Of a stretch of DNA of 64,000 nt, positions 4,046-13,551 are shown one piece after another. How positions within the stretch are numbered: position 1 is the first letter of the stretch; the number at the start of each line of letters is the position of its first letter. The position numbers were made by a program, and so were the translations under genes. Source of the stretch: an uncultured Flavobacteriaceae bacterium (lineage in GTDB: Bacteria; Bacteroidota; Bacteroidia; Flavobacteriales; Flavobacteriaceae); the NCBI GenBank assembly GCA_937944485.1, contig CALDYU010000016.1, positions 1 through 64,000 on the forward strand, given 5' to 3'. The notes under the pieces were generated by a model that saw nothing but the letters and a program-made list of their open reading frames with translations, was not told the DNA's origin and ran no database searches.

Positions 4046-5317
4046 TCATTCTAATTTTTTTCTTATCTCGTCTAAACACAAATTACCCAAACTACCTTTA
4101 TGTGTGTGTTTAATATCTCTTTTAGGTGTAAAAGTACCGGCTTTAATTTCTTCTCCCATTTTTTTGTAGGCATCACGAAAAGGCATTCCATTTTGAACCA
4201 ATTCATTTAAGGTGTCAACACTAAAGAGGTAATCGTATTTTGGGTCTTCAATAATATTTTCGTTGATACGGATTTCTTTCAAACTAAAAGTCAGAATTTC
4301 CAAACAGGCTTTCATATCTTGAATTGCTGGCACTATGATTTCCTTAACCAATTGCAAATCGCGATGGTATCCGCTCGGGAGATTATTAATTACCAAAGTC
4401 AATTGATTGGGTATACTTTGTAGTTTGTTACACTTTCCTCGTACCAATTCAAAAACATCAGGATTTTTCTTATGCGGCATAATACTAGAACCAGTGGTCA
4501 ATTCATCAGGAAAAGAAATAAAATCAAAGTTTTGACTCATATACAAACAAATGTCCATAGCCATTTTTGATAGGGTAGCAGCAATATTTGCTATACCGAA
4601 AGCAGTAGCTTTTTCTACTTTTCCTCTTCCCATTTGGGCAGCAACCACATTAAACTTCATGGTTTCAAAGCCCATTTCTTGAGTTGTAAAACTTCGGTCT
4701 ATAGCGAAAGAACTCCCGTAGCCCGCGGCACTTCCTAAAGGGTTTTGATCAGCCACTTTATATGCCGCATCAATAAAATATAAATCATCAATTAAACTCT
4801 CAGCATAGGCGGAAAACCATAATCCGAACGATGACGGCATGGCGATTTGCAAATGGGTATACCCAGGTAGTAAAATGGTTTTATGTTTTTCAGCTAAATC
4901 CATAAGTAAATCAAAGAGTGTCTTCGTCTGTGATTTGATTTCTGAAAGTTCAGCCTTCAGGTATAAATGCATTGCCACTAAAACCTGATCGTTTCGAGAT
5001 CGTGCAGTATGGATTTTCTTGCCTGTATCCCCTAATTTTTCGGTGAGAAGAAACTCGATTTTTGAATGCATATCTTCAAACGAATCTTCAATTGTAAAAG
5101 TTCCTTCTGCAATCGATTTTCCTATTCCATCAAGCTCGTTTACCAAAGCATCTGTTTCATCTGAGGTAATCAAACCAATTTTCCCTAACATTTTGGCGTG
5201 TGCTTTTGAAGCAATCACATCATATTTTGCCAGATGTAAATCAAGTTCTCTATCATTACCTACAGTGAAATGGTCTATTTTCTTATCGGTACTAAATCCT
5301 TTGTCCCAGAGTTTCAT
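4046..5317 (-). CDS. argH: Argininosuccinate lyase
   Basis: ArgH cleaves argininosuccinate to arginine and fumarate, the last step of arginine synthesis, in the cytoplasm. The 423-residue protein carries the fumarase/aspartase superfamily signature GSSIMPHKKNPD at about 276-287, HTARSRNDQ at 103-111 and the TH of PGYTHLQ at 151-157, as expected for active argininosuccinate lyase. Length is slightly shorter than the roughly 460 residues of many family members, which is usual in Bacteroidota. It is the last arg gene of the minus-strand operon and is separated from the argE-like gene by 63 bp. Its final 12 codons are duplicated at 2987-3022, beyond the HEPN gene. Confidence 0.96.
   Translation of the reverse strand: MKLWDKGFSTDKKIDHFTVGNDRELDLHLAKYDVIASKAHAKMLGKIGLITSDETDALVNELDGIGKSIAEGTFTIEDSFEDMHSKIEFLLTEKLGDTGKKIHTARSRNDQVLVAMHLYLKAELSEIKSQTKTLFDLLMDLAEKHKTILLPGYTHLQIAMPSSFGLWFSAYAESLIDDLYFIDAAYKVADQNPLGSAAGYGSSFAIDRSFTTQEMGFETMKFNVVAAQMGRGKVEKATAFGIANIAATLSKMAMDICLYMSQNFDFISFPDELTTGSSIMPHKKNPDVFELVRGKCNKLQSIPNQLTLVINNLPSGYHRDLQLVKEIIVPAIQDMKACLEILTFSLKEIRINENIIEDPKYDYLFSVDTLNELVQNGMPFRDAYKKMGEEIKAGTFTPKRDIKHTHKGSLGNLCLDEIRKKLE
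4056..4091 (-). repeat. argH 3' end, proximal copy of flanking 36-bp repeat
   Basis: This segment lies inside the argH coding end and pairs with 2987-3022. The two direct copies bracket the HEPN gene with nothing else between them except short spacers. An element that integrates into a gene 3' end and restores the reading frame leaves this kind of arrangement. Confidence 0.8.
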
Positions 5318-5380: not shown

Positions 5381-6445
5381 TTATTGTAAGAATCCCTCCA
5401 ATATATTAATATACAAATCAATGCCTTCTTCAATTTCATGCACATAAATAAATTCATCCGCCGAATGCGAACGTGTACTATCTCCTGGCCCCAGTTTCAA
5501 CGACTGACAGCTTAATGCCGCTTGATCGGAAAGAGTTGGCGAACCATAAGTTTGTCGCCCCAAGGCGATACCCGATTGCACCAAAGCGTGGTCTTTATCA
5601 ATTTTAGAGGAATTTAATTTTAATCCGCGTTCTTGTAATTCACAGGGTGCTACAGACTTTAATAAATTGGCAATTTCTTGATTAGAATACGCATCGTTTA
5701 CTCGAACATCAATCACCAATTCTACCTGTGCTGGCACCACATTATGCTGGCTACCTGCATTGATTTGAGTTACTGTCATTTTTACATCGCCCAATGCCTC
5801 GGAAGTTTTTTCAAATCTGTAATTTTTGAACCATTCCAACACTTCGATTGTATTGTAAATAGAATTATTATCGTTCGGATGGGCCGCATGTGAGGGAGAA
5901 CCTTTTACAACTGCATCAAAGACAATCAAACCTTTTTCAGCAATGGCCAAATCCATCAAAGTGGGTTCGCCAACGATGGCTACATCAATTTCCGGAAGAC
6001 TCGGAAGTAGACCTCGTAAACTGTTTTCGCCTGCACTTTCTTCTTCCATAGAAGCCACCATCAAAATATTATGGTTGAGCTTTTCTTGCTCATAAAAATG
6101 AGTGAATGTGGCTAGTAAAGAAACCAAACATCCCCCTGCGTCATTACTTCCTAATCCGTATAATTTACCATCTTCGATATGGGGATGAAATGGGTCTTTG
6201 GTGTAAGCCTTGTTAGGTTTTACAGTGTCGTGATGTGAATTAAGCAGGAGTGTTGGTTTGCTATCATCCCAGAATTTGTTTTTTGCGAATACATTGTTAT
6301 GAATACGCTCAAAAGGAATGTCAAAAGCCTTGAACCAATCTTGAAGGGCATTAGCGGTTTTATCTTCTTCTGAAGAAAAGGATTGTATTGAAATCAACTG
6401 CTTCAATAAATCTATGGCTTTATTTGTCAATTTTTCCTGCGTCAT
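5381..6445 (-). CDS. argE: M20-family N-acyl-ornithine / N-acyl-citrulline deacylase (ArgE-like)
   Basis: This 354-residue zinc peptidase-fold protein has the M20 metal ligands in order: His72 (in SHHDTVKP), Asp102 (SNDAGG), the catalytic Glu134-Glu135 (MEEESAGE) and Glu160 in VGEPT. Because the operon encodes an acylornithine-type carbamoyltransferase (ArgF'), the expected substrate is N-acylcitrulline rather than N-acetylornithine. Whether the acyl group is acetyl or succinyl cannot be read from the sequence. No argJ is present, so this enzyme is needed for a linear pathway. It begins one base from the argB stop codon, which supports translational linkage. Confidence 0.88.
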   Translation of the reverse strand: MTQEKLTNKAIDLLKQLISIQSFSSEEDKTANALQDWFKAFDIPFERIHNNVFAKNKFWDDSKPTLLLNSHHDTVKPNKAYTKDPFHPHIEDGKLYGLGSNDAGGCLVSLLATFTHFYEQEKLNHNILMVASMEEESAGENSLRGLLPSLPEIDVAIVGEPTLMDLAIAEKGLIVFDAVVKGSPSHAAHPNDNNSIYNTIEVLEWFKNYRFEKTSEALGDVKMTVTQINAGSQHNVVPAQVELVIDVRVNDAYSNQEIANLLKSVAPCELQERGLKLNSSKIDKDHALVQSGIALGRQTYGSPTLSDQAALSCQSLKLGPGDSTRSHSADEFIYVHEIEEGIDLYINILEGFLQ

Positions 6446-6446
6446 T

Positions 6447-7226
6447 TTATAAGGTAATAGTGGTAAAAAGTTCGTTTTTTGAATCCAGCATAGAATGGTG
6501 TCCGATACATACTTTGCTTACATTTTTATGCAAGGCGTGAAAGCAATTTTCCAACTTGGGGAGCATGCCGTCTGCAATAATTCCGTCGTTTAAAAGCTGT
6601 TGGTATTTTGCAGCATCGATATTTTTCACAACAGAATCATCATCTGCTACATCTATCAAAACACCTTTCTTTTCAAAGCAATAGTAAAGTGTAGTATCAT
6701 AAAGCTCACTCATTCCAATTGCAAGTTCGGAAGCAATAGTGTCCGCATTTGTATTCAAAAGTTGACCATGTCCGTCATGGGTCATAGCGCAAAAAACGGG
6801 AGTTAAGTCTGCTTCCAAAAGTTTCGAAATCATTTTATGGTTCACGCCGTCTACGTCTCCAGCAAAACCATAATCGATTTCTTTTACCGGGCGTTTGCGT
6901 GCTTGAATAGCATCGCCATCAGCACCGCTCAAACCAATGGCGCTGCAATTATTTGCCTGTAATTCTGCTACGATATTTTTGTTGGTTAATCCTGCGTAAA
7001 CCATGGTAATAACCTCAAGGGTTTCGGCATCGGTAATTCTTCTTCCCCCGATCATTTTTGATTCAATACCGAGTTTGGTTGCCAACTGGGTCGCTAATTT
7101 TCCACCACCATGGACTAGTATTTTGTAGCCCCCAAGGTTGGCGAAAAGTTTTAGAAACTTTGTGAGTTCGTCGCTATTTTCGATGACGTTACCGCCGATT
7201 TTTACTATGGATAGTTTTTGTGTCAT
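6447..7226 (-). CDS. argB: N-acylglutamate kinase
   Basis: This kinase phosphorylates N-acetyl- or N-succinyl-glutamate in the second step of the pathway. The 259-residue protein shows the amino-acid-kinase fold: the lysine loop VKIGGNVIE at 8-16, the glycine-rich HGGGK at about 39-43, and GGRRITD at 60-66. Length is normal for bacterial ArgB. The start codon overlaps the argF' stop by 4 bp (ATGA), so the two are translationally coupled. The long N-terminal helix seen in arginine-inhibited hexameric enzymes is absent, so strong feedback inhibition is not expected. That would leave control to the operon leader (inference). Confidence 0.93.
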   Translation of the reverse strand: MTQKLSIVKIGGNVIENSDELTKFLKLFANLGGYKILVHGGGKLATQLATKLGIESKMIGGRRITDAETLEVITMVYAGLTNKNIVAELQANNCSAIGLSGADGDAIQARKRPVKEIDYGFAGDVDGVNHKMISKLLEADLTPVFCAMTHDGHGQLLNTNADTIASELAIGMSELYDTTLYYCFEKKGVLIDVADDDSVVKNIDAAKYQQLLNDGIIADGMLPKLENCFHALHKNVSKVCIGHHSMLDSKNELFTTITL

Positions 7227-8158
7227 GATTCCAAAATCTTTTTTAGAACGACTTGCGCAGCAAAAGTTCTGTTATTCGCTTGTTCAATCACTAAAGATTG
7301 TTTTCCATCTAAAACGGCATCTTCAACTACCACATTTCTCCGAACGGGAAGGCAGTGCATAAACTTCGCTTTTCCCAACTTTTCTTTAGTCATCATCCAA
7401 TCGGAATCCTGACTCAAAACTTTTCCATAATTCGAATAACTACTCCAGTTTTTTACGTAGACGAAGTCCGCATTTTCCAAGGCTTTTTCTTCGTCATATT
7501 CAATCGCAGCATCCTTAGTAATTTCAGGATTCAATTCATATCCTTCGGGATGCGTAATTACAAAATCAGCATCCTGCAATTGCATCATTTCAACAAAAGA
7601 ATTGGCAACGGCATGTGGCAGAGCTTTAGGATGCGGTGCCCAAGAAAGAACCACTTTAGGCCTTGCCTGACTATTTTGTTCGTCCATAGTAATGGCATCA
7701 GCAAGAGCTTGCAAAGGGTGCGCTGTAGAGCTTTCCATATTCACGACGGGAATAGAGGCATACTTTACAAATCCATTTAAAACAATCTCGGCTTCGTCTT
7801 TTTCTTTATCTGTCAATGAGGCAAAAGCTCGAATGGCAACAATATCACAAAATTGAGAAACTACCTTTGCAGCCTCTTTAATGTGTTCAGATTTTCCTCG
7901 GTTCATTACAGCTCCATCTTCAAATTCCAATTGCCACCCTTCGGCACCAAAATTCATAACCATTACCTCCATACCTAAGTTCATCGCTGCTTTTTGAGTG
8001 CTTAAACGTGTTCGTAGACTGTTGTTGAAAAACAATAAACAAATCGTTTTTCCTTCTCCCAAAGATTTATGAGCTGCGGGATCTTCTTTTAGTTTTCTGG
8101 CTTCCGATACCCAATTGGGAAGGGAGTCGATATCTTTTACTGATAAATAGTGTTTCAT
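7223..8158 (-). CDS. argF': N-acyl-L-ornithine carbamoyltransferase (ArgF')
   Basis: This 311-residue transcarbamylase transfers carbamoyl phosphate to an N-acylated ornithine. It has the carbamoyl-phosphate loop NNSLRTRLST at 45-54 instead of the STRTR of ordinary OTCase, HPLQ at 147-150 and HCLPVRRN at 268-275. The VRRN ending marks the acetyl/succinyl-ornithine subfamily. From recalled sequences, residue 90 is Pro in the Bacteroides fragilis succinylornithine enzyme and the matching residue is Glu92 in Xanthomonas acetylornithine enzyme. Here it is Ser90 in GKSEH. A small uncharged residue favours succinylornithine, but this is inference. It is followed directly by argB. Confidence 0.93.
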   Translation of the reverse strand: MKHYLSVKDIDSLPNWVSEARKLKEDPAAHKSLGEGKTICLLFFNNSLRTRLSTQKAAMNLGMEVMVMNFGAEGWQLEFEDGAVMNRGKSEHIKEAAKVVSQFCDIVAIRAFASLTDKEKDEAEIVLNGFVKYASIPVVNMESSTAHPLQALADAITMDEQNSQARPKVVLSWAPHPKALPHAVANSFVEMMQLQDADFVITHPEGYELNPEITKDAAIEYDEEKALENADFVYVKNWSSYSNYGKVLSQDSDWMMTKEKLGKAKFMHCLPVRRNVVVEDAVLDGKQSLVIEQANNRTFAAQVVLKKILES

Positions 8159-8259: not shown

Positions 8260-9387
8260 TTAATTCAGAACTTTATTTAATTTTTCAAAGAATACATCTA
8301 AATCTTCTTTGGTAATATTCAAAGCAGGCAATATTCGCAACACGAATTTATCTTTAGCTCCACCGGTAAATAAATGTTGGTCATAAATCAGTTTTCTACG
8401 GAGTTCAGCTACTTCGAAATCGAATTCTAAGCCCAACATCAACCCGCGACCTTTTACCCTTTTTACTTCAGGAATTTCGCTTGCTTTTTTATCAAAATAT
8501 TCTCCTAGTTTCTTAGCGTTTTCAATTAGGTTTTCTTTTTCCATGATTTCTAGAACAGCCATTGTAGCGGCACAAGCGAGATGGTTTCCTCCAAACGTTG
8601 TTCCTAATAATCCGTGAGATGCTTTGATACTTTTATGAATCAAAACTCCGCCTACAGGAAATCCGTTACCCATTCCTTTTGCTATCGAAATGATATCTGG
8701 TTTAATATGGTGATGTTGAAATCCGAAAAATTTACCACTACGCCCAAAACCTGATTGCACTTCGTCAGCTATCAAAACCACTTCGTTTTCTTTGCATGTT
8801 TTAGTGATTTCTTGATAAAATTCTGTGGTGGGTTCATCTAATCCACCAACACCTTGAATCGCTTCAATGATGACTCCACAAACATCGCCTTTTTCGATTT
8901 CAGTTTTGAAAGCGGAAATATCATTTAAAGGAAGAATGGTAACCTTCTGTTGCTTGTTTAGCGGAGCATTGATTTTCTCATTATCAGTAGCTGCAACCGC
9001 GGCAGAAGTTCTGCCGTGGAAACCATTTTTAAAAGCAATGATTCTGGTTTTACCGGTATGAAAAGATGCCATTTTTAACGCGTTTTCATTGGCTTCTGCT
9101 CCTGAATTACATAGAAATAAATTGTAATCTTCGCAGCCTGAAAGCTTTCCAAGTTTGGCAGCTAATTCCTTTTGCAGGGGATTCTGAACCGCATTGCTAT
9201 AGAAACCAATTTTATCTAATTGGTCTTTCAATCGTTTCACATAATGCGGGTGCGAGTGCCCAATAGAAATCACCGCATGGCCTCCATAGAAATCTAAATA
9301 TTCTTGCCCATTATCATCAGTTACAACGATTCCTTTTGCGGAAACCGGAGTTACTTTATAAAGTGGATATACATCGAATAAGTTCAT
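8260..9387 (-). CDS. argD: N-acylornithine aminotransferase
   Basis: This class III PLP aminotransferase converts N-acylglutamate semialdehyde to N-acylornithine. The 375-residue protein has the family landmarks: CNSGAEANE at about 93-101, the PLP-binding Asp208 in ADEVQSGFGR, and the Schiff-base Lys237 in IAKGMGNGFP. Length matches bacterial ArgD. It lies between proC and argF' with spacers of 82 and 101 bp that hold short repeats rather than obvious promoters. The expected substrate follows the acyl group used by the rest of the pathway. Confidence 0.94.
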   Translation of the reverse strand: MNLFDVYPLYKVTPVSAKGIVVTDDNGQEYLDFYGGHAVISIGHSHPHYVKRLKDQLDKIGFYSNAVQNPLQKELAAKLGKLSGCEDYNLFLCNSGAEANENALKMASFHTGKTRIIAFKNGFHGRTSAAVAATDNEKINAPLNKQQKVTILPLNDISAFKTEIEKGDVCGVIIEAIQGVGGLDEPTTEFYQEITKTCKENEVVLIADEVQSGFGRSGKFFGFQHHHIKPDIISIAKGMGNGFPVGGVLIHKSIKASHGLLGTTFGGNHLACAATMAVLEIMEKENLIENAKKLGEYFDKKASEIPEVKRVKGRGLMLGLEFDFEVAELRRKLIYDQHLFTGGAKDKFVLRILPALNITKEDLDVFFEKLNKVLN

Positions 9388-9440: not shown

Positions 9441-9471
9441 CTTTTGTATTTGATTTTGACATTTGTATTTT
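9441..9471. repeat. 31-bp intergenic direct repeat, copy 1
   Basis: A perfect 31-base match to 11395-11425. This copy is in the proC-argD spacer and overlaps the last two bases of proC; the other is in the argG-argC spacer. The 40-50 bases next to each copy are also similar (ATTCAA words), so the whole spacer seems to have been duplicated. Confidence 0.75.
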
Positions 9472-10264
9472 ACTTCGTTTTAAACTCCGTTATCTTATCA
9501 AAGGATGCTACGATTCCTTGGATTAAGGAAGAGCTCAATCCTTGATGTTCCATTTCATTTAGACCTTGTATGGTACAACCCATTGGTGTTGTCACTCTGT
9601 CAATTTCTTCTTCAGGATGATTGCCTGATTCAATTAACAAACTGGCTGCACCATTACAGGTATTCATGGCCAATTCTTGCGCTTCTTTAGCATCAAAACC
9701 TAGTTGTATTGCTCCTTGTGTTGTAGCTCGAATCAAGCGCATCCAGAAGGCGATTCCACTAGCGCATATTACCGTTGCTGCCTGCATTTGTTCTTCAGGA
9801 ATTTCTATAGTATGCCCCATGCGATTAAAAATAGCCTGTGCCAAATTGATACGTTTTTTACCCATGGCATTGGCACAAATACAAGTCATAGACTTGCCTA
9901 CTGAAATTGCGGTATTGGGCATGCTTCTAATGATATAATTGGTAGCACCTATGATACTTTCTATTTTCGCCAAACTAAATCCCGTAATGGTTGAAATCAC
10001 TACATGTTTTTCAGTTAGTAGGTCTTTAATTTCATTTAAAATTTGCGCAAAATGACTAGGCTGTACTGCAAAAATTAGAATATCAGAATTTTGAACTGCT
10101 TCTCTATTATTAGAAGTGACCGTCACGTTGCCGTAGCTTTCAAATTCTTTGATACTTTCTACATTTCTTTTGGTCATGTACATGCTAGTTGCACCGTTGC
10201 TATGCAACACACCTTTTGCGATGGACAATCCTAAGTTTCCTGTTCCGATTATTGCTATTTTCAT
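9470..10264 (-). CDS. proC: Pyrroline-5-carboxylate reductase
   Basis: ProC reduces pyrroline-5-carboxylate to proline with NAD(P)H. The 264-residue protein has the Rossmann motif IIGTGNLG at 4-11 and, near the C-terminus, the family's conserved region (VTTPMGCTIQGL). It sits inside the arginine operon between argC and argD. That fits linked ornithine/proline/glutamate metabolism, and the same placement is common in Flavobacteriaceae as recalled. No proA or proB is present in the window. Confidence 0.92.
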   Translation of the reverse strand: MKIAIIGTGNLGLSIAKGVLHSNGATSMYMTKRNVESIKEFESYGNVTVTSNNREAVQNSDILIFAVQPSHFAQILNEIKDLLTEKHVVISTITGFSLAKIESIIGATNYIIRSMPNTAISVGKSMTCICANAMGKKRINLAQAIFNRMGHTIEIPEEQMQAATVICASGIAFWMRLIRATTQGAIQLGFDAKEAQELAMNTCNGAASLLIESGNHPEEEIDRVTTPMGCTIQGLNEMEHQGLSSSLIQGIVASFDKITEFKTK

Positions 10265-10366: not shown

Positions 10367-11341
10367 TTAATAAACCCCCGCCTTTAACTGTAATCCTTGA
10401 CGTTCATCAAAACCGAACATTAAATTCATATTTTGAACGGCCTGTCCTGATGCTCCTTTTAAGAGATTGTCGATGGCTGATGTGATAAGCAAGGTATCTT
10501 CATGTTGGTGTAAATGAATATGACATTGATTCGTATTCACTACCTGTTTTAGATGAATTGGCTCCTTAGCTATTTGTGTGAATTCTGCGTCCTTATAGAA
10601 ATCTTCGAAAAGCTGAATGGCCTCTTCTTCCGTTCCTTTGAATTTGGTGTAGGCAGTGGCTAGAATACCTCTGGTAAAATTCCCTCTATTGGGAAGAAAG
10701 AACAAGTCGCCAACATCAGTTTGTAATGCAGTTAGACTCTCACTAATTTCTCCTAAATGCTGATGCGTAAAGGGTTTATACCAACTTACATTGTTATTTC
10801 GCCAACTGAAATGTGTCGTGTCAGACGGGCTAACACCTGCTCCTGTACTGCCTGTTATGGCATTCACATGAACGTCCTTACCAAGTAATCCCGCTTTTGC
10901 TAGTGGGAGTAAACCCAATTGAATAGCCGTTGCAAAACAACCTGGATTGGCAATGTAATTGGCTTTTTGAATGTCACTTTTGTTGAGTTCTGGTAATCCG
11001 TAAATGAAACTTTTTCCATTCAAAGTAGCATCTTTCTGAAGCCGAAAGTCATTGCTTAAATCGATGATTTTGGTTTGCGCAGAGAACTGATGCTCTCCTA
11101 AGAATTTGGTAGAATTCCCATGTCCTAAACATAAAAAAACGACGTCTACATCTGAGTTGATGGCTCTTGTGAAATGTAACTCCGTCGTACCCAACAAATC
11201 TGGATGTGCCGATGAAATGGTTTTTCCAGCTCTTGTTGTGCTGAATACAAAATCAATTTCTACTTCGGAATGATTCAATAGAATTCGAATTAATTCGCCT
11301 CCTGTATATCCTGAACCCCCTATTATTCCTGCTTTTATCAT
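10367..11341 (-). CDS. argC: N-acyl-gamma-glutamyl-phosphate reductase
   Basis: ArgC reduces acylglutamyl phosphate to the semialdehyde. The start is placed at the ATG at 11341, so the protein begins MIKAGIIGGSGYTGGE; an in-frame ATG seven codons upstream would put an odd extension before the NADP-binding GIIGGSGYTGG. The protein is then 324 residues, the usual size. The catalytic cysteine is Cys135 in ANPGCFATA. GNFTRG near residue 217 is also conserved. It is downstream of argG and upstream of proC in the operon. Confidence 0.94.
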   Translation of the reverse strand: MIKAGIIGGSGYTGGELIRILLNHSEVEIDFVFSTTRAGKTISSAHPDLLGTTELHFTRAINSDVDVVFLCLGHGNSTKFLGEHQFSAQTKIIDLSNDFRLQKDATLNGKSFIYGLPELNKSDIQKANYIANPGCFATAIQLGLLPLAKAGLLGKDVHVNAITGSTGAGVSPSDTTHFSWRNNNVSWYKPFTHQHLGEISESLTALQTDVGDLFFLPNRGNFTRGILATAYTKFKGTEEEAIQLFEDFYKDAEFTQIAKEPIHLKQVVNTNQCHIHLHQHEDTLLITSAIDNLLKGASGQAVQNMNLMFGFDERQGLQLKAGVY

Positions 11342-11394
11342 AACTTTAAAATTCAAACACAAGATTCAAATTCAATACATTTTGTAAGGAAGCC

Positions 11395-11450: not shown

Positions 11451-11473
11451 CTCCTAACTCCTAACTCCTAACT
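11451..11473. repeat. Tandem 7-bp repeat at argG 3' end
   Basis: Three and a third copies of CTCCTAA run through the argG stop codon (11468-11470) into the spacer. Such repeats are prone to slippage. Because it mainly lies after the stop codon, little effect on ArgG is expected. Confidence 0.6.
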
Positions 11474-12649
11474 ATTAACATGATTATAAATCTTTCCTGG
11501 ATTCGACAGTATTTTAATAAACCCTTTGGCTTCATCTGCCGACCATCCTTTGTTCATTTCTCCATAACTTCCGAAAGAGGCGTTCATCAAATCGTGTTTT
11601 GACGATATTCCATTCAATCGAAATTGAAAAGGATACAATCCCACGAAAACATCTCCTGAAACAGTTTTTTGTGTATCCGTTAAAAATGCTTCAATATTCC
11701 GCATGACAGGGTCTAAATAGTTGCCTTCATGCAGCAGCATTCCGTAAAAATTACCTTGTTGCTCTTTCTGATATTGTTGCCATTTCGATAGTGTGTGCTT
11801 TTCTAATAAATGATGCGCTTTAATGATAATAAGGGCTGCAGCTGCTTCAAAACCAACCCTGCCTTTGATTCCGATTATCGTATCACCGACGTGAATATCT
11901 CTGCCAATAGCATACTTAGAAGCCATGACTTCTAACTTTTCAATATTCGCAACCGGATTATCTTTTTGACCATTAATGGCAATCAATTCTCCTTGCTGAA
12001 AAGTGAGTATTACCTCTGATGGTTCTTTTTGCTGCAACTGACTTGGGTACGCTGAATCAGGTAAGGGTTTATCTGAAGTTAAAGTTTCATCACCACCTAC
12101 TGATGTTCCCCAAAGCCCCCTGTTGATAGAGTATTTTGCCTTTTCCCATGGGTAATCCACTCCGTTTTCTTTGAGGTATTCTATTTCTTCTTCTCGAGCC
12201 AATTTGTTATCTCGAATCGGCGTTATAATTTCAATTTCAGGAGCGATAATTTGAAAAATCATATCAAATCGAACCTGGTCGTTACCAGCTCCTGTACTTC
12301 CATGCGCAATGTATTTAGCCCCTACTTTCTTAGCATAATTTACAATCTCAATAGCCTGTACAATTCGTTCCGCACTTACTGATAGCGGATACGTATTATT
12401 TTTTAGAATATTACCGAAGATGAGATACTTTACCACTTTTTTGTAGAACGTTTGCACGGCATCTATTGAGGTATAAGAAGTGGCTCCCAACTGTAATGCC
12501 TTTTCTTCAATAGTCTTAATTTCTTCGGATGAGAATCCGCCCGTATTCACACTCACGGCATGAACTTCGAATTCTTTTTCTTTACTTAAATATTTGGCGC
12601 AGTAACTAGTATCTAATCCGCCACTATATGCTAAAATGAGCTTTTTCAT
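11468..12649 (-). CDS. argG: Argininosuccinate synthase
   Basis: ArgG joins citrulline and aspartate using ATP. The 393-residue protein has the N-type ATP pyrophosphatase P-loop AYSGGLDTS at 8-16 and the HGSTGAGNDQVRF segment at about 115-127. Length is typical. It is the second gene of the operon, 75 bp after the GNAT gene. Since citrulline must be free for ArgG, the acyl group must be removed by the argE-like enzyme before this step. Confidence 0.95.
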   Translation of the reverse strand: MKKLILAYSGGLDTSYCAKYLSKEKEFEVHAVSVNTGGFSSEEIKTIEEKALQLGATSYTSIDAVQTFYKKVVKYLIFGNILKNNTYPLSVSAERIVQAIEIVNYAKKVGAKYIAHGSTGAGNDQVRFDMIFQIIAPEIEIITPIRDNKLAREEEIEYLKENGVDYPWEKAKYSINRGLWGTSVGGDETLTSDKPLPDSAYPSQLQQKEPSEVILTFQQGELIAINGQKDNPVANIEKLEVMASKYAIGRDIHVGDTIIGIKGRVGFEAAAALIIIKAHHLLEKHTLSKWQQYQKEQQGNFYGMLLHEGNYLDPVMRNIEAFLTDTQKTVSGDVFVGLYPFQFRLNGISSKHDLMNASFGSYGEMNKGWSADEAKGFIKILSNPGKIYNHVNS

Positions 12650-12724: not shown

Positions 12725-13348
12725 TTAATTTTTTGCTACTTTCTTCTTTTTGAGGAACAATTGTTCCTTGATACTTTTTAATCTTTTAAATGCTTTCCCA
12801 TTTAATTTCTTCTTTTTCTTTGCTATTGTTGAGGGGTCATAAAGCATGCCCGTACAAAGACACATTTTTTGTTCTGTTCGGGTAAGCACATCAAAGTTCT
12901 TACAGGTCTGACAACCTTTCCAGAATTCAGGGTCATCTGTAAGTTCTGAGAAGGTTACGGGCTTATAACCTAATTCATAGTTGATTTTCATGACAGGAAG
13001 CCCTGTGGTAATTCCGAATATTTTAGCTTCAGGAAATTTTTCTTGCGAGAATTTAAAAATCTTTTGCTTAATGCTTTTTGCCAAACCCTTTCCTCTATAA
13101 TCAGGGTGTACGATTAGTCCGGAATTGGCCACGTACTTGGCATGCCCCCATACTTCGATATAGCAGAAACCCGCAAATTTTTCACCATCTAAAGCGATAA
13201 CGGCATTACCATTTTCAAGTTTTTTTCGAATGTATTCAGGGGTACGCTTCGCTATACCAGTCCCTCGCACTTTAGCAGAGTCGGCTATGGTGTCGCAAAT
13301 GATTTGCGCGTACTTAAAATGTAATTTGGTAGCAACAACAATGTTCAT
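12725..13348 (-). CDS. GNAT acyltransferase, candidate N-acylglutamate synthase
   Basis: This 207-residue GNAT-fold protein has an acyl-CoA-binding loop at residues 80-92, HPDYRGKGLAKS, after a beta strand. It is the first structural gene of the arginine operon, which otherwise lacks argA and argJ, so it is the best candidate to make N-acetyl- or N-succinyl-glutamate for ArgB. That role is inferred from context. Unusually, the C-terminal part holds four cysteines, Cys146-x2-Cys149 and Cys163-x-Cys165, which could bind zinc, and the tail is very lysine-rich. It begins about 90 bp after the stop codon of the arginine leader peptide, so it would be the gene most directly controlled by it. Confidence 0.8.
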   Translation of the reverse strand: MNIVVATKLHFKYAQIICDTIADSAKVRGTGIAKRTPEYIRKKLENGNAVIALDGEKFAGFCYIEVWGHAKYVANSGLIVHPDYRGKGLAKSIKQKIFKFSQEKFPEAKIFGITTGLPVMKINYELGYKPVTFSELTDDPEFWKGCQTCKNFDVLTRTEQKMCLCTGMLYDPSTIAKKKKKLNGKAFKRLKSIKEQLFLKKKKVAKN

Positions 13349-13398: not shown

Positions 13399-13420
13399 GG
13401 AACTGGACTCACCTAGTTCC
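13399..13420 (-). promoter_or_regulatory. RNA hairpin between arg leader peptide and first arg gene
   Basis: On the minus-strand transcript GGAACT and AGTTCC pair over 6 bp, extended by GG/CC past a bulged A, leaving a 5-base loop. The base GGTGAGT inside the hairpin (13407-13413) is also complementary to GCTCACC inside the leader peptide (13456-13462), so the two structures exclude each other. There is no U-run directly after the stem; a T-rich stretch begins about 17 bases later. Whether this is a terminator or a pause or translation switch is open. Confidence 0.5.
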
Positions 13421-13438
13421 ATGAAATGTATAGTACCC

Positions 13439-13522
13439 TTACGGGCGACGACGACGGTGAGCGAACGGACGTACGGTAGCAGCGATGCTTGTAGTAGATA
13501 GTATGTAGTTCTGTGCGTTCAT
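13439..13522 (-). CDS. Arginine-rich leader peptide of the arg operon (27 residues)
   Basis: The frame ATG at 13522 to TAA at 13439-13441 encodes MNAQNYILSTTSIAA, then TVRPFAHRRRRP. It ends with four consecutive arginine codons (CGT CGT CGT CGC) and has a fifth CGT five codons earlier; all are CGY codons read by one tRNA-Arg. It lies between a good promoter (13552-13582) and the first gene of the arginine operon. This is the architecture of a classical amino-acid attenuator leader, such as trp or his. The interval is much more GC-rich than its surroundings, as expected for a structured leader RNA. Regulation by arginine is inferred. Confidence 0.75.
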   Translation of the reverse strand: MNAQNYILSTTSIAATVRPFAHRRRRP

Positions 13523-13551
13523 TACAGCGTAAATGTACAAATTATCTTGAA

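Follow-up and report, generated by a model that had tools for sequence, protein, structure and literature searches.

A putative arginine leader peptide and conserved RNA hairpins ahead of the arginine biosynthesis genes of Flavobacteriaceae

In the attenuators of his, trp and leu operons, the promoter and the first biosynthetic gene are separated by a short open reading frame (ORF) in which codons for the end product form a run, and a frame with the same layout precedes the arginine genes of an uncultured Flavobacteriaceae bacterium (contig CALDYU010000016.1). This Arg-rich leader ORF is the subject of the present work; the window is the whole stretch of DNA analysed, i.e. positions 1 to 64,000 of that contig, to which all coordinates refer.

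The nearest worked-out precedent that we found is speF of Salmonella, in which consecutive Arg codons in the leader orf34 sense arginine by ribosome pausing, with Rho, RNA structure and decay involved (PMC6386406). That leader controls ornithine decarboxylase, its sensing Arg codons are codons 12 and 13 of 34, and it belongs to a long untranslated region, whereas here an arginine biosynthetic operon follows, the Arg run is at the end of the ORF, and the leader is short. Arginine is also sensed by the Arg codons of the rbfL leader of S. aureus, a translational system in which a biofilm regulator is repressed via occlusion of the ribosome-binding site and rare AGA/AGG codons are used (PMC13009471). 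An Arg-codon leader peptide is thus common to rbfL and the present locus, whereas the target and the rare-codon mechanism of rbfL differ.

Bacteroid-trp RNA is a Trp leader. The motif, RF01692, is listed for Bacteroidetes (PMC2864571); unlike it, the arginine leader has no relevant match in Rfam. In F. psychrophilum there are strong clues for leader-peptide attenuation before amino-acid operons, with 5' elements before pheA and hisG, in a paper whose main text does not contain argG and mentions arginine once, about cyanophycin (PMC9723704). Other upstream ORF motifs (PMC8632094) and Bacteroides small ORFs reminiscent of leader peptides (PMC7366714) have been described, and the passages of these two papers that were examined name no arginine operon. 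Leader-peptide control itself is therefore known, and flavobacterial clues to it are in print, but among the listings examined from searches of open-licence papers in PubMed Central (supplements and subscription papers not included), no bacterial leader peptide for arginine biosynthesis came up.

The source genome also has a classical His leader, MKNKNTHHHLLTGYQAR followed by a stop codon, upstream of hisG on contig 2 (L338:1198-1316). It is followed by a perfect 14-nucleotide (nt) hairpin, AAAAACCCGTTTGA/TCAAACGGGTTTTT, with a T-run before hisG. Unlike this his leader, the arginine leader has no such terminator, and it has a hairpin with a nearly invariant loop (H2, described below).

The arginine-rich frame and its distribution

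The leader ORF lies on the minus strand at 13439-13522, exactly where a sequence-only reading of the window had placed a frame of 27 codons, and encodes MNAQNYILSTTSIAATVRPFAHRRRRP directly before the gene of a GNAT acetyltransferase and an argG-to-argH cluster. As that reading also stated, five of the last ten residues are Arg, and all of their codons are CGT or CGC (CGT, CGT, CGT, CGT, CGC). The tRNA-Arg with anticodon ACG decodes CGY, and an ARAGORN scan of 30 loci identifies three genes for tRNA-Arg, with anticodons ACG, TCG, and TCT.

Alignment of relatives bears out the conservation that the sequence-only reading had named as a check: a short ORF with an Arg-codon run is present upstream of GNAT-argG, with CGYCGYCCGTARGGGT and a hairpin whose loop is AGGTGAGTCC, once AGGTGTGTCC. 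By DNA search, the stretch is present in 22 of 59 genomes, the source genome counted, and in 17 of them the match covers at least 74 bases; four of the remaining five matches are located at the Arg-codon end and one (G035) is unlike the leader. A covariance model of the leader end, called R1 and comprising 60 positions, has matches in 180 of the 299 Flavobacteriaceae genomes searched. All three marginal ones (G237, G289, G329) fail on reading, leaving 177, not all of which were read; the ten other weak matches that were read each contain an H2 hairpin together with an Arg-rich frame. In G098, G134, G139, and G260, a second R1 match (E-values of 0.004-0.05) is unlike the element on reading. Across a sample of the phylum, R1 matches 18 of 198 genomes, ten of them within the family; the eight others, with E-values of 0.008-0.044, were treated as chance. 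A scan of named genomes gave at least 118 stretches, and the 80 titles listed include Maribacter, Zobellia, Winogradskyella, Muricauda, Arenibacter, and other flavobacteria, a few being labelled only as Bacteroidetes, Bacteroidia, or Flavobacteriales.

Most of the comparisons below use 109 loci (49 plus 60 searched loci), a subset of the 180 R1 matches. This set omits the duplicate loci L027-L030, L032, L033, L060, and L062, the near-copy L004, and L021-L025; 20 further loci are outside it, ten of which were read later, and G119 and G187 were read separately. Downstream of the element, the GNAT gene is present in 109 of 109 loci and argG in 108, the exception being L003, which ends first. In G119 and G187, which have no GNAT match, the leader is 0.7-0.9 kb ahead of argG-argC. 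Conversely, 175 of the 197 GNAT-positive genomes of the family match R1 and 22 do not; among the 21 readable genomes of the latter kind, 15 have a short Arg-rich frame upstream, against 158 of 1450 shuffled sequences. In genus g146 (L178, L181, L183-L187, L195, L196; nine genomes read), the GNAT gene is present and the leader element is not.

The frame terminates in Arg-Pro-stop in 96 of the 109 loci and otherwise in 13. These 96 frames have a mean of 4.25 Arg in their last 12 codons (minimum 2), compared to 0.43 and 0.51 in the other two frames, and the relatives use CGT, CGC, CGA, AGG, and AGA. Within the group of 27-codon leaders (24 pairs, which are not independent; codons near hairpin H1 excluded), changes at codon positions 1, 2, and 3 number 99, 78, and 159, and the ratio of synonymous to non-synonymous single-change codons is highest in frame, at 82:99, the two other frames giving 61:121 and 20:158. 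Five pairs of 26-codon leaders show 19, 11, and 24 changes at the three positions. Where a second leader is present (42 loci, see below), 30 codons or more are free of stops in the Arg frame of 41 loci and in the other frames of one and two, and all 42 have an in-frame ATG, TTG, or GTG 24-31 codons ahead of the last Arg pair. On these frame tests, codon tests, and conservation, the leader ORF is more than a chance feature. Comparison shows a translated-like frame in which the Arg codons are what is kept, and it supports an arginine leader peptide. The Arg codons, partly AGA, CGA, and AGG, persist in relatives that lost the RNA element: the frames of L175 and L176 end in VVCFRRRRCRE and EVCVPRRRIRE, respectively, before the stop codon, and H1 and H2 are not seen there. 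In several relatives the Arg codons have outlasted both the RNA structure and the peptide sequence, a clean natural experiment on the requirements of an attenuator.

Frames of this type also occur beyond the family, though the statistics there are weaker. Elsewhere in the order, 39 genomes are argG-positive; 17 of their loci were scanned and 14 of these examined further; ten of the 14 have a frame with at least four Arg before GNAT-argG, compared to 36 of 560 shuffles. By family, these are 3/3 loci in f2, 2/2 in f7, 3/3 in f15, 2/3 in f9, and 0/3 in f5. The frames end in RRLRA, RRRPVRV, RRQPNRQ, or RCRRYDA before the stop codon, and what the families share is Arg and no peptide motif.

Bacterial arginine biosynthesis is usually described as controlled by ArgR. 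None of the 299 Flavobacteriaceae genomes, the source genome included, gives a match to PF02863, the C-terminal family of ArgR. PF02863 is found in 72 of the 198 genomes of the phylum sample and in eight of 14 control genomes, and no ArgR search was aimed at the other families of the order.

Promoter, second leader and RNA hairpins

The flavobacterial -7 promoter box, TAnnTTTG, occupies positions -12 to -5 (PMC9723704). The nearest predicted box of this type, TACATTTA, occurs on the minus strand at 13530-13537, so that the transcript start is predicted near 13525, about 3 nt before the leader ORF, which places the start codon at about +4. Among the matches listed, near relatives have TACATTTA, or in several cases TACATTTG, at the same distance. 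The sequence-only reading had instead proposed a well-spaced promoter with the ORF starting about 23 bases into the transcript. This part did not hold, as a scan for E. coli-type promoters finds no minus-strand match within about 340 nt upstream of the ORF, the nearest being about 340 nt up; the transcript start predicted from the -7 box is nevertheless upstream of the ORF, as that reading had assumed.

Unlike classical attenuators, 42 of the 109 loci have a second Arg leader upstream, i.e. a frame that starts with ATG, spans no more than 32 codons and has at least three Arg in the last ten (for instance L080, L092, and L104), such as MKNLKNKIRCTIPGLPVRSRRRF followed by a stop codon in L055. 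The second leader ends 112-160 nt, mostly 121-142 nt, ahead of the element. The same scan finds 2 of 84 on the reverse strand and 4 of 840 in shuffles. At least two of the 42, L056 and L084, are unlike the rest of the second-leader family and may be chance matches. A strict TAnnTTTG box occurs within 20 nt of the second-leader ATG in 16 of the 42 loci, in 13 of which it starts exactly 12 nt before the ATG, and many other second leaders have a near-form box, for example TAGTTTTA, at a similar distance. Given the -12 to -5 rule, a box 12 nt before the ATG implies that the transcript begins at the A of the ATG, and the second leader is thus apparently leaderless in many loci. No second leader is visible at the source-genome locus.

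Three hairpins are associated with the leader, all on the minus strand. H0 (13478-13489, AGCA-UCGC-UGCU) lies inside the ORF upstream of the Arg run. In near relatives it shows two-sided changes at five of five aligned pairs, but only 75.6% of the cells pair; the H0 stretch folds with a mean z of -1.38, and 99 of 109 loci are below the shuffle mean, compared to mean z values of 0.45, -0.70, and -0.02 for three control stretches. H1 (13435-13446, GCCC-GUAA-GGGU) has the last Arg/Pro codons as its 5' arm and the stop codon in its loop. It is invariant in near relatives, and among 60 distant rows one pair changes from C-G to A-U in four and is unpaired in two. H2 (13399-13420, GGAACU-A-GG-UGAGU-CC-AGUUCC) has a nearly invariant loop and no U-tract behind it. 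In an alignment of 60 distant sequences, which was fitted to the covariance model and leans towards it, all six pairs of the outer stem show two-sided changes and 97.8% of the structure's cells pair, values reached by none of 500 shuffles; in a MAFFT alignment of 19 sequences, four of the six pairs show two-sided changes and 99.5% of the cells pair. The interior of H2, consisting of the A, the GG/CC pair, and a UGNGU loop, is nearly invariant, with GA/UC for GG/CC in L099. Comparison of these sequences shows H1 and H2 to be RNA structures tied to the arginine operon.

Hairpins resembling H2 are found in two other families of the order. In all five loci of f2 and f7 (L363, L379, L366, L371, L365), the Arg frame is followed by a hairpin that has 5-8 pairs and a UACGU or UCCGU loop, and a hairpin of this UNNGU type is found in none of the nine loci of the other three families and in 123 of 5600 shuffles. 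The UNNGU pentaloop hairpins and H2 may possibly represent a shared protein- or ribosome-binding module.

Judged by its sequence, H2 is not an intrinsic terminator, and a terminator scan finds none on the minus strand between the leader ORF and the GNAT gene. A search of the source contig stretch against Rfam gives, at the gathering score, only a tRNA elsewhere, with no T-box, riboswitch, Bacteroid-trp, or Flavo-1; at E-values up to 5 it adds only a small RNA model (E 4.2) outside the hairpins. Two other roles for H2 were considered and rejected. Pairing of its loop with tRNA-Arg amounts at best to 6-7 pairs, wobble included, and nothing about it is specific. Nor does H2 recur as a module: the genome contains its loop decamer eight times (a reversed-pattern control twice), and on reading only the arg site has this hairpin in a leader.

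Proposed sensing of arginine and competing explanations

In our view the leader is best explained as an arginine sensor that is translated and serves the arginine operon, and we hold this with good confidence. Transcription would begin a few bases before the start codon, with the ribosome trailing the polymerase. When charged tRNA-Arg is scarce, the ribosome would stall on the CGY run, and a ribosome stalled on or before the last Arg codons would keep H1 open, since these codons make up its 5' arm and its loop holds the stop codon; the C-rich end of the ORF would be covered and the operon expressed. When arginine is plentiful, the ribosome would finish and leave, H1 would form beside H2, and expression would fall. 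That the ribosome stalls, and that the response has this direction, is what we infer from this arrangement.

The least certain part is the output step, the way in which stalling would alter expression. Our first guess is termination that depends on Rho or on another factor and takes place in a leader with more C than G, GNAT translation and mRNA decay being the alternatives. C exceeds G in all 109 leaders, compared to 12 of 108 GNAT gene starts, and the 44 nt after H2 contain 6% G. The sensing step would thus be like that of classical attenuators and the output step would not, and we do not file the leader with the intrinsic-terminator attenuators, because a T-run of five starting within 3 nt after H2 occurs in only eight of 109 loci and because one candidate anti-H2 hairpin, proposed as a classical antiterminator, fails when linkers are swapped between loci (-1.49 kcal/mol with the own linker and -1.61 with swapped ones; own better in 44 of 109). 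The term arginine attenuator, used in the sequence-only reading, is therefore supported as far as a conserved Arg leader peptide is meant and not supported in the sense of an intrinsic terminator.

The scarcity of T-runs and the failed antiterminator candidate both count against the translated sensor as proposed, and several further results point the same way. The whole leader is not unusually stable compared to shuffles (z 0.24). Rho would be favoured by the excess of C over G, but this excess and a low G content close to start codons may be common among flavobacteria and in the phylum. Six of the 21 readable GNAT genomes without an R1 match have no Arg-rich frame upstream, and in genus g146 seven of the nine genomes read have none, the matches in the other two being taken as chance. 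Outside the family, a threshold of at least three Arg gives 11 of 14 loci compared to 120 of 560 shuffles, a weak difference, and all six loci scanned in family f5 have no leader.

More tentatively, and with real doubt as to whether all of its parts are right together, we propose ribosome sensing at the arginine operon in the Flavobacteriaceae, with two leaders in series in many genera, the first of them leaderless, and with readout by a non-terminator module made of H1 and the UNNGU-loop hairpin, recurring in three families. A large family, with ArgR not found in 299 genomes, appears to gauge charged tRNA-Arg directly at its arginine operon through a leader peptide, and in many genera through two leaders in series. 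A non-terminator output, if true, is not described for amino-acid leader peptides in the literature searched, and the missing terminator together with the nearly invariant hairpin loop makes the output step directly testable.

Among the competing explanations, the one that survives best keeps arginine sensing as proposed and lets it act only via translational coupling or RNA decay at the GNAT gene, not on transcription; we consider this unlikely as the whole explanation, while giving it appreciable weight, and it overlaps with the translated sensor. It is consistent with the position of the element, since the distance from its end to the GNAT start is 36-60 nt in 102 of 109 loci (64-94 nt in the other seven), and has precedents in Salmonella speF (PMC6386406) and S. 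aureus rbfL (PMC13009471). However, no helix closing the GNAT start is common to the 105 start contexts compared by eye: a hairpin of this kind is found in relatives of the source genome, not in distant loci.

Nascent-peptide arrest, in which the Arg-Arg-Pro peptide and free arginine in the exit tunnel would prevent release at the stop codon, in the manner of TnaC with tryptophan or of the fungal arginine attenuator peptide with arginine, appears improbable. TnaC likewise ends in Arg-Pro-stop, as do the 96 frames mentioned above. Nevertheless, 12 of the other 13 frames, judged by reading their sequences, run past the H1 loop or end otherwise, so that Pro-stop is not universal, and CCG-TAA is explained by H1 too. 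Arrest would also call for a conserved peptide, whereas these peptides share mainly Arg and their ends differ between families.

A riboswitch or protein-binding element made of H1 and H2, acting alone with an incidental ORF, is very improbable. The most conserved bases are indeed those of H1 and the H2 loop, and the recurrence of the UNNGU-loop hairpin in two other families would suit such an element, but the ORF is open and codon-constrained, L175 and L176 keep the Arg codons without H1 and H2, and Rfam offers no relevant match. Finally, a functionless Arg-rich frame arisen by chance has only the short length of the ORF in its favour and, given the conservation and coding tests, can practically be dismissed.

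Genes of the arginine cluster

The genes behind the leader are all on the minus strand. The first structural gene, at 12725-13348, encodes the GNAT acetyltransferase (Pfam PF00583/PF13508), which has no NCBIfam name and travels with argG; its product may act as the N-acylglutamate synthase (ArgA) of these bacteria. It is followed by argG (11468-12649, TIGR00032), argC (10367-11362, TIGR01850), and proC (9470-10264, TIGR00112), each over the model's cut-off. The next two genes are assigned by their best NCBIfam models below cut-off: an argD-type transaminase (8260-9387, TIGR00707) and a carbamoyltransferase of the N-acetyl- or N-succinylornithine type, argF' (7223-8158, NF003384, 285.4 bits compared to a cut-off of 288). 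Further along are argB (6447-7226, TIGR00761 over cut-off), an ArgE/DapE-type deacylase (5381-6445, TIGR01910 below cut-off; Pfam Peptidase_M20), and argH (4046-5317, TIGR00838 over cut-off). Because proC, encoding pyrroline-5-carboxylate reductase, sits inside the arginine cluster, the arginine leader may govern a proline step too.
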